In this document: positions 18,177 to 26,533 of the stretch, piece after piece
Layout: each line of letters starts with the position of its first letter
Numbering within the stretch: position 1 is the stretch's first letter
From: Niveispirillum lacus
GTDB lineage: Bacteria; Pseudomonadota; Alphaproteobacteria; Azospirillales; Azospirillaceae
Reading direction: 5' to 3'
Length of the DNA: 64,000 bases
Assembly (NCBI RefSeq): GCF_002251795.1
Contig: NZ_NOXU01000027.1
Coordinates: forward strand, 49,344 to 113,343
The notes under the pieces: generated by a model
The model's database searches: none
What the model saw: only the letters and a program-made list of their open reading frames with translations
Told to the model about the DNA's origin: nothing
Translations under genes and position numbers: made by a program

Positions 18177-18971
18177 CTAACGGCCGAACTGCCACCAAAG
18201 TGCCAACAGGGCCATGCGCTCGCCGCCGGCATTGCGGCCGCCGATGGCTTTGGACAGCCCAACCTGAAGCCCTACATCGTTGGACAGTCGCCGCACGGCT
18301 GACAATTGAACCTTGTATCGGCGCACATCGCCATAGCCTGGGCCCGGCGTCCCGGTACTGACAGCATTAAAACTCTGAGCCAGCAGCAGCCAGTCGACAT
18401 CCGGCCGCCAACCCCATGTCAGGTCCAAACGAAGCTCATCCGCAGCCGGGCCGCCGCGCGTGCGGTAGGCCAGTTGCCCGTCGAAGAACCCGCTGTCGAA
18501 CCCGTACCCGTAAAGCGCACGCATTTCCGCATCCACCTTGCCTGACCCCAGCGGTGGCTGGGCACCGCGATCGTAGCCCAGCGGCACGCGGATCAGGGGT
18601 TGCAGCGCCACAATCTCCGCCCCGGCCTGCCAAACGGTCCGGCGCAAGGCAAATTCGGCATCGGCCAGACCGGCCGCCTTATCGCTGCCGCCGTCCGCAT
18701 CGTCGGCTTTCAGCGACTGCCATGAAGGCTGGACACTGAGGGTGGTCGTACCGTCGACCCCCCAGGAAATCAGCGGTGACACCTCCAGCTTGCGGAACTT
18801 GGGGTCGGGGCCGCCGACGCGGCCATCAAAGCCGCTGTCCGATTGTGAAAAGGTGGCGCCGGCAATGACCTCCATGGTCCCGGCAGCCTGCGGCCAGGCC
18901 CCGGCCATAGCAGGGGCGGCGGGCAACAGCAGGCCAATGGCCAGAAAGACAACAGACTTAAGACAGGACAT
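18177..18971 (-). CDS. Outer-membrane beta-barrel protein, phenol-degradation-transporter-like
   Basis: A 264-aa secreted protein. The signal peptide (about 1-23) ends APAMA. The rest is alternating amphipathic strands (MEVIAGATFSQSDSGF, LRLDLTWGWRPDVDWLLLAQ, YKVQLSAVRRLSNDVGLQVGL) ending in aromatic ...LLALWWQFGR, like outer-membrane barrels of the MetA-pathway/DUF transporter type. The start lies 3 nt after the stop of the receiver protein gene, so it is the last gene of the five-gene operon. It could be the export pore for the glycan, but no TPR scaffold like BcsC is present. Confidence 0.75.
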   Translation of the reverse strand: MSCLKSVVFLAIGLLLPAAPAMAGAWPQAAGTMEVIAGATFSQSDSGFDGRVGGPDPKFRKLEVSPLISWGVDGTTTLSVQPSWQSLKADDADGGSDKAAGLADAEFALRRTVWQAGAEIVALQPLIRVPLGYDRGAQPPLGSGKVDAEMRALYGYGFDSGFFDGQLAYRTRGGPAADELRLDLTWGWRPDVDWLLLAQSFNAVSTGTPGPGYGDVRRYKVQLSAVRRLSNDVGLQVGLSKAIGGRNAGGERMALLALWWQFGR

Positions 18972-18974
18972 GCT

Positions 18975-19928
18975 TCAGCCTTCCTCGGACGGCACCATGG
19001 CGCCATCCACAATCCGACCACCGCCATGGGCACGGGCATGGTCCAGTCCCCGCCGGGCAATAGCCGCAGCCTCCAGCCCGACGCCATATCCGGCAGACAG
19101 GGTGACATGGGGGCCGGCATTGGACCGCGGATGCGGGATGCGGGCACGCCCAACCAGTTCGACCAGCCGTTCGGCAGTGTCGCGGGCCAGTCCGGGATCC
19201 GCATTTTGGAACAGGATGGCCAGCCGGCCATCGCCGGCCATGGTCAGCACATCCCCGATCCGCCCCGGCAAACCAGCGGCCAGTTCCATGACCCGCCGGG
19301 TTAGCGCGGCTGCCGGGTCAGCGCCATCCACCTCTTCCAGGCGACCGAAATCATCAATAGCAGCCATCAGCACGGCACCGTGATGGCGCCGCTGTGCGCG
19401 TTCGGACAGAAGCTGAAGCGTCTGAGCCGGTCCGGGCCACCCCAGCCCCGCAACGAAACCAGCATCCGATAGCGACAATTGTCGACGATCTGCTGCCAGT
19501 TCGGCCAGCTCACCTTCCCGCGCCCGACGCCGGCGGGCCTCCGTCCGCCAGCGCAGGGCCGATTGCACCCGCGCGCGCAGCGCCATCACAGAGGCCGGCT
19601 TGACCACAAAGTCAAACGCGCCGGCAATGAAGGCTTGGTTCAGCGTCTCCTCATCCTCCAACGACGACACCATGATCACGGGAACATCGGCCAGCCGGGG
19701 ATTATCCTTGATCAGGCAGGTGGCGGTGATTCCGTCCATTTCTGGCAGCATGATATCCATCAGCACGATATCGACCGGGCATTGCTCACCCTCGATCCGC
19801 CCGACATCCAGAGTGGCCAGCGCCTCCTCGGCGCTGGCAGCCATGATGAACGGACCATACCCGCAGGCATTCAGTTGTGCTGCCAGCAGTTCCCGGACCT
19901 CCTCTATATCCTCGACGATAAGGATCAT
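18975..19928 (-). CDS. Response regulator: receiver domain plus degenerate GGDEF domain
   Basis: A 317-aa protein. The receiver domain (about 1-125) begins MILIVEDIEEVRELL and has the phosphoacceptor Asp in DIVLMDIMLPEMDG and the conserved Lys in FVVKPAS. A linker (about 130-165) leads to a GGDEF-like fold (about 175-310). The substrate and catalytic signature is replaced by AGDGRL where GGDEF is expected, though a HVTLSAGYG strand like VTxSxG remains. It should therefore not make c-di-GMP and may act as an allosteric switch. An upstream in-frame extension overlaps the membrane-protein gene and was rejected; the ATG at 19928 is 1 nt past that gene's stop. Confidence 0.85.
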   Translation of the reverse strand: MILIVEDIEEVRELLAAQLNACGYGPFIMAASAEEALATLDVGRIEGEQCPVDIVLMDIMLPEMDGITATCLIKDNPRLADVPVIMVSSLEDEETLNQAFIAGAFDFVVKPASVMALRARVQSALRWRTEARRRRAREGELAELAADRRQLSLSDAGFVAGLGWPGPAQTLQLLSERAQRRHHGAVLMAAIDDFGRLEEVDGADPAAALTRRVMELAAGLPGRIGDVLTMAGDGRLAILFQNADPGLARDTAERLVELVGRARIPHPRSNAGPHVTLSAGYGVGLEAAAIARRGLDHARAHGGGRIVDGAMVPSEEG

Positions 19929-19929
19929 G

Positions 19930-21489
19930 TCATTCCCCCCCGTTCCTTTCGCCGGCCGGCAACCGCCAGACACGCCAGTCATCCCTGTCATAGACCAGCA
20001 CGGCCCCCCTTCCTGCATCCTGCCACAGATCGGGCAGGGCCTGTGCGATCCGGTCACGGGCACCTGCCGGCCTGGCAGGCGCCCGCAACGCCACATAGGC
20101 GGTGCGCAACTGCCCGACGATCAGATCGGCTTTTAATCGGTCATTGCTGGGCAGAACCAGTCCCGCCGCCCGCCCCCGGCCCGGCAGCACCGCCCCCGCG
20201 GTCAAGCCGTCGATGGCCACGTCATTCAGGTCGCGCAGGAAATGTCCCAGGGCCAGGTCACCTTTGGTGGAACCCTCGACCGGCCCCTGCCCCAGTAGCG
20301 CCAGCCGCCAAGCCGATGCATGGGCATCGCCGGTCTGATCCTGCGCCCACCAGCCAGCCACCAGCCCCAGTAAGACCAACAGCATCAGCAGACCCCCGCG
20401 TCGCTGGTGGCGCCCCGCCACCGCTGCCGCCAGGACACAGACCGGCGCCAGGTAGGCCAGCAACCGCCCTGGATCCCCAAGGAACCAGGTGGCAGAACTG
20501 AGGACCAGCGCCGTCAGGATCATCCCAGTCAGCAGCAGAAGGACCCGCCGCGCCCCCCGATCCCCAAACCACAGCCCCATGGCCAGCAATGGCGCATTGG
20601 CCAGGATCAGCAGCACACCGAAGACCAGCGCCGTGCCGATGCTGCCGCCCGGTCCCAGCAACCAGGGACTGTCGCCGATCTGTGCAGCCGAACCGTGAAT
20701 GGCGGCATCAACGCCAGCAGCAAAAGCCAGCGGCGAGCCACCAAACACCCAGTTTGCATAGAACAAGGCGATGGCGGCAAAGATCAATGGAAACATCACC
20801 ACCAGCAGGCTTCCCGAGGCCGATGTCGCCACCATACGGGCGGGCAGCAGCAGGGCGATGAAGGGCACCGACGCCAGCACCAGATAGGCTCCGGCCGCAT
20901 CGGCCAATGCCAGAAAGGCCAGGGAAACACCCAGCGCGATCATGTCATTGACCTCCCCCCGCCGGGCCAGCCGTTGGGCGGCACTGACGGCGACGGTGAA
21001 GGCCAGGACACCGAGCGGTGCTGAACCACCGGCGGCAACGGTCGGCGCCAGGGCGGGAGCACTGGACAGCAGCGCCGCCGTCACCAGGGAAGGTAAAAAC
21101 CGATACCCACCGGCCACCAGCAGACGCACCCAAAAGGCCGCTGCGATCGCGAGCATCAACACATTGACCAGCAAGGGCGGCGGCATGCCGCCCAAGCCGG
21201 GGATCAGGGCGATGATCATGTCAAAGGCCAGGGGCAGGACGGGATAGGCTGTACCCGTCAGGTCCCGGAAGGCCCCGACATCAGCAGTGGCCAGCAGGGC
21301 CCGGGTCCAGCGATCGGCCATCGCGGAGTCCAGCCACCCACCCTGCATCGGCCAGGACGCGACAAACCCGATGAACGGTAGCAGCAGCGCCAGGGCGACG
21401 GGGAAAAGCCAGCGCGGGACCGACCGCCCACCCCGTTTATCCATGTGAACTGGTACGAAATTGCCGTGGCTGGCGGCGGCCATGGTCAT
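19930..21489 (-). CDS. Polytopic inner-membrane protein, possible GT-C-like enzyme
   Basis: A 519-aa protein with about 10-11 hydrophobic segments between residues 23 and 390 and a soluble C-terminal part of about 130 residues. The first loop, GGWLDSAMADRWTRALL, followed by acidic residues, is the layout of GT-C glycosyltransferases and of polysaccharide-modifying membrane proteins. No diagnostic motif was recognised, so the function is open. The start ATGA overlaps the stop of the GT2 synthase, implying translational coupling. It is likely a dedicated partner of the synthase. Confidence 0.8.
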   Translation of the reverse strand: MTMAAASHGNFVPVHMDKRGGRSVPRWLFPVALALLLPFIGFVASWPMQGGWLDSAMADRWTRALLATADVGAFRDLTGTAYPVLPLAFDMIIALIPGLGGMPPPLLVNVLMLAIAAAFWVRLLVAGGYRFLPSLVTAALLSSAPALAPTVAAGGSAPLGVLAFTVAVSAAQRLARRGEVNDMIALGVSLAFLALADAAGAYLVLASVPFIALLLPARMVATSASGSLLVVMFPLIFAAIALFYANWVFGGSPLAFAAGVDAAIHGSAAQIGDSPWLLGPGGSIGTALVFGVLLILANAPLLAMGLWFGDRGARRVLLLLTGMILTALVLSSATWFLGDPGRLLAYLAPVCVLAAAVAGRHQRRGGLLMLLVLLGLVAGWWAQDQTGDAHASAWRLALLGQGPVEGSTKGDLALGHFLRDLNDVAIDGLTAGAVLPGRGRAAGLVLPSNDRLKADLIVGQLRTAYVALRAPARPAGARDRIAQALPDLWQDAGRGAVLVYDRDDWRVWRLPAGERNGGE

Positions 21490-23399
21490 GATGATTGCCC
21501 CATGCTGGCCAACGCCTTGGCCACTTCCTGCTTGGTGGTCTGTGACAGGCCGTGCTGAGTCTTTTCCCAGTAGAATGGATTCTTCACCAGTTGCCACAGC
21601 GCCTTGTAGGCCGCTACCGACATCAGCGCCCAGTAACCAATGACCGTCAGGCCCCAGGGCGCCAGATTGGTCCAGCCGCGTTTCACCGGCGCGATGATCG
21701 AGATGTAGGTAAACAACCCATTGCCGGCCAGAAGGTTAAACAGTGACAGGTATAACAAGGCCGTCGGGAACAGCGGGTCCAGCCAGGTCCCACCCAACAG
21801 CAGCCACAGCAGGTAGAAGCCCCAGAAGATCGGGTTCAGCAAGCCCGACAGCATGGTGCCACCGATAAAGAACTGGAACCCCCAGAAGCCGCCCGCGCCC
21901 ACCGATTTATAGAGGTGGATCGGGTCCCGCATATGCACCAGATAGGTCTGCATATAGCCCTTGATCCAGCGCGAACGCTGACGCACCCAATTGGGAATGG
22001 AGACATTGGCTTCCTCGAACGTGGTCGAATTCACGACCCCGACGCGATAGCCTTTCTGTGTCAGCCGCACGCCCAGATCGGCATCCTCCGTCACGTTGAA
22101 CGGATCCCAGGCGTGAAGTTTGGTCAGCACATCCATCCGGAAATGGTTCGACGTACCGCCCAGCGGGATCGGAATATTCAACCGTTCCAGCCCGCCCAAC
22201 ATGAAATCAAACCATAGCGAATAATCCAGTGTGAACATCCGCGTCAGCCAATTTTCATTGGCATTGAAATAGTTCAGGCGACACTGGATGCAGGCGGTAT
22301 TGGGCGAGGCCTTGCGGAAAGCCACAACCACCTTTTTCAGTTGGTCCGGCTCCGGTTGGTCCTCTGCGTCGAAGATCACCAGATACTCGCCACGGGCAAA
22401 GCGCAGGGCATAATTGCAGGCCTTGGGCTTGGTCTGCGGTTTGGAAGCGGGCACCCGGATGATCTCAAATATGCCTTCCAGGCCCAGCGACTTGGCCGCG
22501 TTGATCGTCTCATGGTCACCCGCTTCCAGCACCAGCTTGATATCCAGCTTGGCGATGGGATAGTCCAACCGGCGCAGCGCTGCCGCCAGGATGGGCAATA
22601 CCTCCGGCTCCTTGTACATGGGGACCAGAACGGTAAAGGTCGGCAGATCATCATCATTGAGGGCCGCGACCTCGGCGTCGGTCACCTTGCGATCTACCTG
22701 TTTGGCATCAGCCCCGAACCAGACCAGGATGGTCTTCAGGAAGAAATTACCAAGATAGAACAAGGCCATGATGACATTGGTCACGATCAGGGTGCCAATG
22801 GGAGCAAAGGCCAGACCCAGCAAGAACACCGAGAGCAAGGCGTACAGAAACAGCATCTGGCCCGGCGTCACGACCGTGCGGGCGGAACTGCTAGGGTCCA
22901 TGTCGGCCAGGGCATGCACCGCCAGATGGTTAAACTCCTCCTCGAACAGTCGTTGTAAGGTCCAGACAATGTCGAACTTCGACGTCACGACCATCCGGGT
23001 CCTGGGTCCGTAGGTCTGGCGGGCGAACAGCATGGCCTTGGGCCCCGGATCGGCTGTCGCGACCGTGACGACATCGCCTTCCTTCTTCCAGGGCAACAGC
23101 AACAGACGGCTGTAATCCTCCATCTGGGTTTTGTCCGCGAGCCCTTCTTGCGGTGGCTGCGCCATCATGTCGATGAAGGGCAGACGGAAGCGGTCGGCCA
23201 GTGTGCGGTAGAAGTCCCGGGCCTTGACCATACCCTGGGAGATCACAACGTCACCGAACGGCACTTTCCACTGCCGTTGCAGTTCCAGCGCACGCTCCAC
23301 CTGCGCGACCGTCATCAAGCCCTTGGCCAGCAGAAGCTCGCCAATGGGCGGGACCGTATCGCTACTGGTTGGAGCGGCAGGCGGGGGAAGAGGGACCAT
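21486..23399 (-). CDS. GT2-family polysaccharide synthase with N-terminal MshEN (GspE-N) domain
   Basis: A 637-aa processive-type glycosyltransferase. Residues about 18-155 form a GspE-N/MshEN domain with two family-type motifs, IGELLLAKGLMTVAQVERAL and FGDVVISQGMVKARDFYRTL. Two membrane segments follow (about 182-228). The GT2 domain has VPMYKE (260-264), acidic DAEDQPEPDQL (344-), TED (437-439) and QRSRW (474-478), the D,DxD,TED,QxxRW set of BcsA-like synthases. Three or more further membrane segments follow. MshEN domains bind c-di-GMP in other proteins, so activation by c-di-GMP is likely, in place of the PilZ domain of cellulose synthase. The sugar is unknown. The gene starts 6 nt after the BcsB-like gene. 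Confidence 0.92.
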   Translation of the reverse strand: MVPLPPPAAPTSSDTVPPIGELLLAKGLMTVAQVERALELQRQWKVPFGDVVISQGMVKARDFYRTLADRFRLPFIDMMAQPPQEGLADKTQMEDYSRLLLLPWKKEGDVVTVATADPGPKAMLFARQTYGPRTRMVVTSKFDIVWTLQRLFEEEFNHLAVHALADMDPSSSARTVVTPGQMLFLYALLSVFLLGLAFAPIGTLIVTNVIMALFYLGNFFLKTILVWFGADAKQVDRKVTDAEVAALNDDDLPTFTVLVPMYKEPEVLPILAAALRRLDYPIAKLDIKLVLEAGDHETINAAKSLGLEGIFEIIRVPASKPQTKPKACNYALRFARGEYLVIFDAEDQPEPDQLKKVVVAFRKASPNTACIQCRLNYFNANENWLTRMFTLDYSLWFDFMLGGLERLNIPIPLGGTSNHFRMDVLTKLHAWDPFNVTEDADLGVRLTQKGYRVGVVNSTTFEEANVSIPNWVRQRSRWIKGYMQTYLVHMRDPIHLYKSVGAGGFWGFQFFIGGTMLSGLLNPIFWGFYLLWLLLGGTWLDPLFPTALLYLSLFNLLAGNGLFTYISIIAPVKRGWTNLAPWGLTVIGYWALMSVAAYKALWQLVKNPFYWEKTQHGLSQTTKQEVAKALASMGQSS

Positions 23400-23405
23400 G
23401 CCGGA

Positions 23406-25469
23406 TCACGTCTTCGGCGGGCGGTTTCGATACCAGCGGCGCAAGGCCCCGACACCGACCAGGGTCAACAGACCCCAGGCACCCAGCACCAGCACGATGC
23501 GGAACCGGTCCAGCCAATCGGCCCAGCCGGCATCATCAGCCACCACCACCCGCACCGCGCGGTCGCGCACCGTGTCAAAGGCCATCAACATGCCCGTCGC
23601 GTCGGCAAAAGCGACATTACCCCTGTCAAACGACAGACGTGGTATGCCCGGCGGCACCCGACCGTCATGGGTGGTCAGCGAAAGGCCGGGGGTGTCATCC
23701 AGATTGGTAAGCTGGGCCGTGACCAGCCCGCTACTACCCGTGATATCCAGCAGGACCTGCCCTGACCGGTCCTGCACCGACACGGCCCCACGATCCAGGC
23801 GCACGGGCAGGTCGGCCTTGCCCGGCAGGCTGGCGCCCGGCAATTGAATGAAGGGTGTGATGGGCACGGCCTTGCCATCGCCGATAATCACCGACAGTGG
23901 CGCCTGAACAGGCACAAGGTCGGCAACGATACGGGCTGCAAGGTTGATGGCATTCAGATCCCTCAACTGGTCCGCAGTAACAACAAGGGTCGCCCCCTTG
24001 GCCATGGCGGGTGACAGGGCATAGAAATCGCCAGGCTTCGTGTTGTCGGGTGCCAGGGTCACGCGGCTGCCTGGCAGGATCTGAGCCGGGCTGGCCAACG
24101 GCGCCTCACGGCAATCGCCACCGGACGGCTGACGCTGCAACACGATGCGGATGGCGTTGGACCGGCCCAGCAGACCATCGGGCAACGGCACCGACATCCG
24201 CTGCACCTTGCCGCCATCGGTCAGGGAAACGCTGCGCAGCAATGTGTTATTGACGAAGACATGCAGCAACTGCGGCCGGTCGCCCATGGTGCTGCCGGGC
24301 GCCAGCTCAATCTCCAGTGCCGCCGGGCGCTGACCATGCGGCACCTGCGTGTAATCCAGGCGCAGCGGCCACTCTGCACGGTCAACCAGTTCCTGTACGC
24401 CCTGGCCCAAGCCCAGGGCCGCGAAGGGGATGCCGTCAGCACCAATCAGGCTGGCCGGCGGTGGTTTGGCGATGGTGATGGCATTGGCCGTCATATCGGA
24501 CAGGGCGGACCAGCCATCGGTCAGGAAACGAACCTTCTCTCCGTCAATCCCGTCCAGAAGTGCGATGGAGGGGGCACCCATACCCTTCAGCAGCCCGATA
24601 TCAGCACCGCCGGAGGTGTCCAGTTCATACTTCCTTTCAGGGCCGGCCTTGGCCTGCATCACACTGATAAAATCGTTGATCTCCGCCCGGGAGGCGACGA
24701 AGACGCTGCCGGTATCCATCTCTGCCAAGGTCGGCAGGGGCGGCGGCGGCGGAAGGCCAACCTGAGCGGCGGTGGCATCCGCTGCCGGGGTCGCCGCAGA
24801 CGGGATGCGGATGATCTGGACGCGGCGCCCCTCACGGATCAACGTCGCGGCCAATCGGATCACAGCCTGGAACTGCGTCGCGCTCAACCCTTCTGCTGAC
24901 ACGAAGATGCTGACGCGCGGTCCCAGCGCCGACCAGGCGGCGCGCACGCTGTCGATCCTGGCGGGATCAATCCTGTAGGTTACGGCGCTGTCGGGCGACA
25001 GGGTGACAAAGCCGCCAGGCAGCCGTTGATCGACGCAGCGATTATCGGTCCATTGCGCGCCCCAGGCGATGGTGGCCTTGGTAAAGGCCTGCCGCGTGTC
25101 AACCCGCTTTAAGCTGGTAGCGACCGATTGCGCATGGGCCCCCGCCTTCAAGGCGCCCGTCCAGCGCGGTTGGTCATCCAACAGCAATTGCACTGACGCC
25201 CGCTGCCCTTCGGCCAGGACCGTATCCAGATTCATCTCCAACTGAAGATTGTCGGTCGGGACCCAGGCTGGCAGCGGGAAAAAGACATCCTGCCGGGCAG
25301 AGATGCCCGACAAGGTAACCCCGTTCGGATAGCCCAGGTCGCGCAGCGTCACAGTGCGGATCGCCGGGTCTGCGGGATCGGCGGCCATGACCGGGGCGAC
25401 CAAGGCGGTTCCCGTGTACAAGGTGGTGAAGAAGGCGGCGATCAGGGCGTGGCGCATGGGGCTTACCAT
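23406..25469 (-). CDS. BcsB-like periplasmic subunit of a polysaccharide synthase
   Basis: About 687 aa and exported. The N-terminus is MVSPMRHALIAAFFTTLYTG with cleavage near VMAA. One C-terminal membrane helix (FRIVLVLGAWGLLTLVGVGAL) is followed by a basic tail, the anchoring seen in BcsB. The beta-rich body with repeated modules beginning RTVTLRDLGYPNGVTLSG and the later ALGLGQGVQELVDRAEWPLR fit the cellulose synthase regulatory subunit family (PF03170). BcsB guides the growing chain across the periplasm. The ATG at 25457 is an alternative start; neither has a clear ribosome site. It is the first gene of the operon. Confidence 0.88.
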   Translation of the reverse strand: MVSPMRHALIAAFFTTLYTGTALVAPVMAADPADPAIRTVTLRDLGYPNGVTLSGISARQDVFFPLPAWVPTDNLQLEMNLDTVLAEGQRASVQLLLDDQPRWTGALKAGAHAQSVATSLKRVDTRQAFTKATIAWGAQWTDNRCVDQRLPGGFVTLSPDSAVTYRIDPARIDSVRAAWSALGPRVSIFVSAEGLSATQFQAVIRLAATLIREGRRVQIIRIPSAATPAADATAAQVGLPPPPPLPTLAEMDTGSVFVASRAEINDFISVMQAKAGPERKYELDTSGGADIGLLKGMGAPSIALLDGIDGEKVRFLTDGWSALSDMTANAITIAKPPPASLIGADGIPFAALGLGQGVQELVDRAEWPLRLDYTQVPHGQRPAALEIELAPGSTMGDRPQLLHVFVNNTLLRSVSLTDGGKVQRMSVPLPDGLLGRSNAIRIVLQRQPSGGDCREAPLASPAQILPGSRVTLAPDNTKPGDFYALSPAMAKGATLVVTADQLRDLNAINLAARIVADLVPVQAPLSVIIGDGKAVPITPFIQLPGASLPGKADLPVRLDRGAVSVQDRSGQVLLDITGSSGLVTAQLTNLDDTPGLSLTTHDGRVPPGIPRLSFDRGNVAFADATGMLMAFDTVRDRAVRVVVADDAGWADWLDRFRIVLVLGAWGLLTLVGVGALRRWYRNRPPKT

Positions 25470-25531: not shown

Positions 25532-26533
25532 TTGCAGCGGGAACGATATGCCTCGCGGCGCGGCATTCTGAAACTGGCGGCGGGTCTGGCAGGGCTGGGC
25601 CTGCTGCCAGCGGGTTGCACGGGTGCTGGCGCGTCGCCCTGGCGGGGTGTGAACCTGATCGCAACGCCGGATGCGCCGCTGGGGTCCGCCGCCTGCGGGC
25701 ATTCCCTGCGCCATCTGCGCAATCAAGGCGGCAATGCTGTCGCCCTGATCCCGTTCCTGTGGCAGCCGGCGCCCGCTGACCCCCGCATTGTGCTGGGTGA
25801 CGCCGTCAGCGCAGATCAACTGCGCGCCGGGATTCGTCAGGCCAGGAACCTGGGTCTGAAGGTGCTGGTCAAACCCCATGTCTGGGTACCACAGACCTGG
25901 GCCGGCGCGATCGAATTCACGCAAGCCGCCGATCAGGCAGAATGGTTGGCCCGCTACCAAGCGCTGCTTCTCGACCTCGCCATCCTGGCACAGGAAGAGG
26001 GAGCAGAAGCCCTGGCATTGGGAACGGAACTGCGCGGCGTCAGCGGCGATCCTGCCTGGACCCGCATCATCACACAGGTGCGCAACCGGTTCCGGGGGAT
26101 CCTGACCTATGTCGCACATTGGGATGGCGAACTGGATCGCCTGCCCTTCCGCACCTTGCTGGATGTCCCATCGATCAGCCTCTACCCGCCGCTGGGCGAG
26201 GATGATGCTGGCTTGGCTGGACGGATTGAGGCCCTGGCCGCTGCCCTGGCCAGACAGGGGCCGCTGTGGGTGGGCGAACTCGGCCTGCGCAGTGCGGTGG
26301 GCGGTCAGTTGAAACCCTGGGAAAGCCCCGAAGAGCGCGCGGCGCTTCCCGATGGTGATTTGCAGGCCCGGGTCCTGGACCATTGGCTGACGGCCCTGAG
26401 CCGTCACGGGTTGCACGATGTCCTGCTGTGGCGCTGGTTCAGCGATCCCGATGCCGGTGGCCCGCAGGACACCGACTTCACCGTGCAGGGTAAGCCCGCA
26501 GAAGCGGTGTTGAAGCGACATTTTGGGAGCTGA
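25532..26533 (+). CDS. Tat-exported lipoprotein glycoside hydrolase, GH113-like
   Basis: A 333-aa protein starting at TTG with a strong ribosome site (GGAGGG at 25518-25523). The N-terminus shows a twin-arginine motif SRRGILK, a hydrophobic stretch and lipobox LPAGC, so it is probably a membrane lipoprotein exported folded. The mature part has WRGVNLIA, VKPHVWVP, the acid/base candidate in ALGTELRG and the nucleophile candidate in WVGELGLRS, consistent with a clan-A TIM barrel such as GH113 (beta-mannan/glucan hydrolases). It is divergent from the synthase operon with a 62-nt gap. It is probably the trimming enzyme for its product, analogous to BcsZ; that role is inferred. Confidence 0.8.
   Translation: MQRERYASRRGILKLAAGLAGLGLLPAGCTGAGASPWRGVNLIATPDAPLGSAACGHSLRHLRNQGGNAVALIPFLWQPAPADPRIVLGDAVSADQLRAGIRQARNLGLKVLVKPHVWVPQTWAGAIEFTQAADQAEWLARYQALLLDLAILAQEEGAEALALGTELRGVSGDPAWTRIITQVRNRFRGILTYVAHWDGELDRLPFRTLLDVPSISLYPPLGEDDAGLAGRIEALAAALARQGPLWVGELGLRSAVGGQLKPWESPEERAALPDGDLQARVLDHWLTALSRHGLHDVLLWRWFSDPDAGGPQDTDFTVQGKPAEAVLKRHFGS

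Follow-up and report, generated by a model that had tools for sequence, protein, structure and literature searches.

The window, a stretch of 64,000 nucleotides from Niveispirillum lacus, carries what is, judged by homology, a complete xag/sfz exopolysaccharide cluster, in which one gene encodes a membrane-bound family 2 glycosyltransferase (GT2) with an MshEN domain at its amino end, referred to here as the window synthase. The features of the locus are as follows.

25532 to 26533, plus strand: GH113 glycoside hydrolase, homologue of XagD/Sfz4, divergent from the operon (PF22612, E = 1e-28)
23406 to 25457, minus strand: BcsB-like periplasmic subunit, homologue of Sfz1 (PF03170, 34.7 bits against a cut-off of 21; the ATG at 25457 is inferred)
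21486 to 23399, minus strand: MshEN-GT2 synthase of 637 aa, homologue of XagB/Sfz2, the window synthase (open reading frame and translation, profiles, identity, AF2 model)
23190 to 23348, minus strand: MshEN_N subdomain, aa 18-70, two 24-residue c-di-GMP motifs with a 5-residue spacer (motif mapping, NF053729, four-helix bundle)
22935 to 23189, minus strand: MshEN_C subdomain, aa 71-155 (PF05157 match over 71-155; superposes on MshE 5htl_B)
21930 to 22643, minus strand: GT2 catalytic domain, aa ~253-490, with membrane helices on both sides (Pfam, conserved residues, BcsA match)
19930 to 21489, minus strand: homologue of XagC/Sfz3, a 519-aa membrane protein of GT-C fold (profile linkage; AF2 model, Foldseek)
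18975 to 19928, minus strand: response regulator, receiver plus degenerate GGDEF (PF00072, PF00990)
18177 to 18971, minus strand: XagA-like exported protein of 264 aa (homologue in Xanthomonas locus L073)

The genes on the minus strand are tightly packed: the synthase starts 6 nt past the stop of the BcsB-like gene, its own stop overlaps the ATG of the XagC/Sfz3 homologue (ATGA), and the next two gaps are 1 and 3 nt. Homologues of xagA, xagC and xagD, or of sfz1, sfz3 and sfz4, all lie beside the synthase in the window as they do in its relatives, and a BcsB-like homologue adjoins the glycosyltransferase gene in most loci of the family. Gene order in the window is that of Mariprofundus-type loci (BcsB-GT-XagC-GH113), to whose homologues the GH113 protein is 38-40% identical, and the Xanthomonas xag locus (XagA-XagB-XagC-GH113) shares the gene set. 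The XagA-like protein, whose Xanthomonas homologue precedes xagB in locus L073, begins with a signal-peptide-like N-terminus and had no match in the Pfam profile search; it is a probable outer-membrane barrel. The response regulator, by contrast with the rest, belongs to alphaproteobacterial loci and is absent from the Xanthomonas and Mariprofundus loci examined. Such receiver/pseudo-GGDEF regulators accompany xag clusters in several Alphaproteobacteria, and in the window protein the GGDEF signature is replaced by GDGRL. As the signature is lost in all eight of the xag-linked homologues aligned as well, we rejected this regulator as the source of c-di-GMP for the operon.

That the window synthase belongs to the XagB/Sfz2 family (Xanthomonas xagABCD, KEGG K20327; Mariprofundus sfz1-6) is almost certain. 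A genome scan gave identities of 54-80% to named XagB/Sfz2 homologues, with Niveispirillum irakense at 80% and, over aa ~9-630, Xanthomonas cucurbitae at 59% and Mariprofundus ferrooxydans PV-1 at 54%; XagB and Sfz2 themselves are 54-61% identical to it over nearly the full length. They share its domain order and its neighbours (BcsB-like, XagC/Sfz3, GH113 XagD/Sfz4 and XagA-like proteins). Profiles and the AlphaFold model (pLDDT 89.8) place an N-terminal MshEN domain first, then transmembrane helices from residue ~179, a BcsA-like GT2 domain matched by PF13632/PF13641 (Pfam), and further helices, the last ending at 606. The motifs of a processive GT2 are present as DAED at 344-347 (D344/D347), TED at 437-439 and QxxRW at 474-478, and these residues are invariant or nearly so across 55 homologues. 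Furthermore, the synthase part of the model superposes on BcsA with Z scores of 26-30 in a second structural comparison of the Foldseek matches. The window system resembles BcsA-BcsB in its GT2 and transmembrane fold and in having a BcsB-like partner, and BcsA is itself under c-di-GMP control; however, BcsA senses the nucleotide through a C-terminal PilZ domain and the window synthase carries MshEN instead, and the CelA/BcsA family model scores only 52.7 bits on it, far below the cut-off of 699.

The original prediction placed an MshEN-type domain at the amino end of the glycosyltransferase, at 22950-23360 on the minus strand, which corresponds to residues ~14-150 of the 637-aa reading frame. 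This proved correct: the complete domain spans residues 18-155, ahead of the first membrane helix and on a processive-type GT2, and both of the motifs quoted earlier are present at aa 18-41 and 47-70, far beyond chance. Motif I reads P18-IGELLLAKGLMTVAQVERALELQ-41, the spacer RQWKV occupies aa 42-46, and motif II reads P47-FGDVVISQGMVKARDFYRTLADR-70, which makes an MshEN_N unit of exactly 53 residues, the same as in V. cholerae MshE (PMC5013675). The proposed alignment to PF05157 scored above the curated cut-off (E = 1e-9, 38.7 bits against 23.1), as did NF053729 'c-di-GMP_motif' at aa 18-69 (E = 9e-12, 44.5 bits against 38), and phmmer matched MshE 5htl and PilF in the same alignment. In the AlphaFold model MshEN_N forms a four-helix bundle (helices 19-25, 31-44, 48-54 and 60-70) followed by MshEN_C to ~152, and residues 16-152 superpose on c-di-GMP-bound MshE 5htl_B with a Z score of 17.3 and an rmsd of 2.3 Å over 137 aligned residues. 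Fold and motif layout are thus those of the MshE N-domain (5HTL), although MshE is a pilus ATPase and retains both arginines and Gln61. The genome holds only one other MshEN match (G000:C12:147873-148073), a short reading frame without an intact ATPase reading frame, possibly a GspE remnant.

An important question is whether this domain can still bind c-di-GMP, and here the contact residues give a divided answer. Both contact glycines are kept (MshE Gly11 and Gly40 correspond to Gly20 and Gly49), as is Gln32 (Gln41), and all six hydrophobic contacts are still hydrophobic (Leu10 to Ile19, Leu25 to Val34, Leu29 to Leu38, Leu39 to Phe48, Leu54 to Phe63 and Leu58 to Leu67), but the remaining three Arg/Gln contacts have changed, Arg9 to Pro18, Arg38 to Pro47 and Gln61 to Arg70. 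Most of the key contacts are thus present, namely the glycines, Gln32 and the hydrophobic clusters, while both arginines and Gln61 differ, with changes of a kind that is also seen in known binders and elsewhere in the family. In MshE, the arginines stack on guanine and Gln32 and Gln61 make hydrogen bonds. The glycines and the hydrophobic clusters carry the most weight: mutation of the hydrophobic contacts in that protein reduced binding more than tenfold (PMC5013675) and the glycine mutants bound poorly if at all (PMC5013675), while changes of Arg9 or Gln32 cost no more than fivefold (PMC5013675). Known binders also depart from the MshE pattern: E. coli NfrB, which binds c-di-GMP with a Kd of 1.0 uM and requires Gly491 for function, aligns with Pro489 at the Arg9 position and Arg512 at the Gln32 position, and PilF GSPII-C, another binder, has Pro at the start of one motif. 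We considered the relaxed exact-pattern motif of Wang et al. as a family test and dropped it because NfrB, PilF-B and PilF-C, all of them known binders, escaped it; contact status was scored instead by aligned contact positions. The window protein shares Gly11 and Gly40 with all ten of its close homologues in the Niveispirillum group, where the mean pairwise difference is 0.08 at contact positions against 0.24 in the rest of MshEN_N (permutation p 0.03), and Pro47 varies within the genus, being Arg in sister species. No report of c-di-GMP binding or activity for any XagB MshEN domain was found in the literature searched. On this comparison of residues, the MshEN domain of the window synthase is likely to bind c-di-GMP. 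Since both guanine-stacking arginines are proline and one phosphate-binding glutamine is arginine, the predicted affinity likely lies in the micromolar range, weaker than that of MshE; because NfrB and PilF GSPII-C carry such changes, binding is expected to be weaker but real.

The strongest alternative is that this MshEN domain has lost its c-di-GMP binding and is now a structural module or a docking site for a protein such as the receiver/pseudo-GGDEF regulator of the operon, and we regard this as unlikely without dismissing it. The loss of three of the four Arg/Gln contacts speaks for it, as does PilF GSPII-A, which does not bind c-di-GMP (Arg62, Ser39, Ala41, His33) and likewise aligns with Arg at the Gln61 position and without Arg38, which is Ser there; that protein, however, is also without Gly40 and Gln32. 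The conserved pseudo-GGDEF regulator linked to alphaproteobacterial xag loci would offer a docking partner, and homologues in Bacteroidota keep the fold-forming residues with both contact glycines gone, so that an MshEN domain can outlive its ligand. Against these points, the window synthase retains the contact glycines, Gln32 and the hydrophobic clusters, all of which are conserved in the Niveispirillum group, and both Pro in place of Arg and Arg in place of Gln occur in known binders.

The family as a whole offers a further view of the contact glycines. For 62 family members, we set the number of GGDEF matches in the genome against the state of the two glycines: both were present in 39 of the 44 members whose genomes have at least two GGDEF matches, and not once among the 18 that have at most one (Fisher p 2e-11), although this p-value is no proof because the GGDEF-poor set, judged by the record titles, consists entirely of Bacteroidota (18 of 18), and so of few evolutionary events. 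The covariation, which seems not to have been reported before, may be a single lineage effect. Both turn glycines are nevertheless kept in 14 of these 18 Bacteroidota, and for that reason the MshEN fold probably persists in them. Five alphaproteobacterial members with GGDEF proteins in their genomes have lost one or both contact glycines. The host of the window synthase has 34 GGDEF matches.

The original prediction also regarded the position of the domain as a different wiring of the idea seen in NfrB. It was right that NfrB carries its MshEN domain at the opposite, C-terminal end. However, the N-terminal arrangement is no unusual variant of NfrB; it is standard in the XagB/Sfz2 family, whose relatives in our genome scan span at least eight phyla and nearly all carry an N-terminal MshEN domain, which makes this the rule of the family. 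They include members in Bacteroidota, Chloroflexota, Bacillota, Actinomycetota, Synergistota, Gemmatimonadota and others, and the same layout is found in Xanthomonas (L073) and Mariprofundus (L077/L078). NfrB and the window synthase share the combination of GT2 and MshEN, with Pro and Arg replacements that in NfrB lie in motif I; their glycosyltransferase parts, however, are only ~23% identical, and NfrB works with different partners, NfrA and YbcH. We rejected the idea of an NfrB homologue with moved domains on account of this distant relationship. The NfrB equivalog NF008411 scores 28.5 bits on the window synthase against a cut-off of 1170, with the match confined to the MshEN part. The arrangement is also already known in kind: an N-terminal EpsE-like T2SS domain (IPR007831) followed by a GT2 has been described for Sfz2 (PMC8250860), whose cluster had earlier been named xag-like (PMC4643136), and MshEN fusions to glycosyltransferases were listed by Wang et al. 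2016. It is thus very widespread and no new invention.

The number of MshEN copies varies within the family. The window synthase has a single one, in which both arginines are proline, whereas Mariprofundus Sfz2 and homologues in Bacillota and Chloroflexota have extra tandem copies: two MshEN_N units in the Mariprofundus homologue, two or more motif copies in those of Bacillota (L122, L133, L137, L139 and others) and six PF05157 matches in one Chloroflexota protein (L097:6826-10854). Within the order, the gene occurs in 11 of 82 genomes, the window's own included; apart from a single genome from a different genus, all of these are Niveispirillum. One Niveispirillum orthologue (L009, G009:C12:8364-10256) contains an in-frame TGA and is either a pseudogene or the product of a sequencing error.

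A second alternative, discussed for Sfz2 (PMC8250860), takes the N-terminal domain for an EpsE/GspE-like translocation part that pushes the polymer out; Pfam and InterPro do class it with the N-domain of secretion ATPases, but with no ATPase domain, a 53-residue c-di-GMP unit that keeps both contact glycines, and authors who themselves find translocation questionable (PMC8250860), we consider it very improbable.

Our preferred reading is that the window synthase is the inner-membrane synthase of a xag/sfz exopolysaccharide system in which c-di-GMP, acting through MshEN, switches polymerization on, and we think this quite likely. In the proposed mechanism, some of the host's ~30 GGDEF proteins would supply the c-di-GMP, which would bind the 53-residue MshEN_N bundle and alter the contact of that bundle with the cytosolic glycosyltransferase domain. 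If the window synthase works like NfrB and BcsA, for which this is established, binding would free the GT2 domain and so switch polymerization on; activation of the enzyme by c-di-GMP is somewhat more likely than inhibition. The chain would leave through the transmembrane channel of the GT2 with the BcsB-like subunit, the GT-C protein XagC would modify it, the XagA-like protein would take part in export and the GH113 enzyme would trim it. More broadly, and with some reserve, we favour the view that c-di-GMP switches all XagB/Sfz2 synthases, those of the stalk-forming iron oxidisers among them, through the N-terminal MshEN domain, and that lineages without diguanylate cyclases kept the domain and lost the nucleotide contacts, while others expanded the sensor into two or more copies. 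XagB-type synthases are leading candidates for the enzymes behind the twisted iron stalks and behind a biofilm glycan of Xanthomonas, in which both xagA and xagB have a part in biofilm (PMC3609779). The contact map, together with the finding that GGDEF-poor Bacteroidota have lost the contacts, makes c-di-GMP control of this widespread synthase family testable.

Finally, the cluster contains a protein, XagC/Sfz3, that was listed as of unknown function in the sfz paper (PMC8250860). The model of the window homologue (AF2, pLDDT 87.6) matches ArnT with a Z score of 19.2 over 408 residues, and each of the 50 Foldseek matches listed is either a GT-C enzyme or a complex that includes such an enzyme. 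On the strength of this model, XagC/Sfz3 is a protein of predicted GT-C fold, which seems not to have been reported before and gives a first role to the gene; such an enzyme could transfer sugars from lipid carriers onto the chain being exported. A 327-kb viral contig (IMGVR_UViG_3300028800_000001, L024:3652-8258) carries a 1183-aa reading frame in which an XagB-type GT2 without MshEN is fused to an XagC-like GT-C domain (E 1.5e-29), and this fusion supports joint action of XagB and XagC. The reading frame lies directly after a GH113 gene, near genes for a Cas4-like exonuclease and a RuvC-like resolvase, and is apparently a phage-borne polysaccharide synthase without the sensor domain. Ten more putatively viral contigs from IMG/VR (L147-L156) encode XagB-like GT2 proteins, most of them without the MshEN region in the stretch covered and several situated at contig ends.
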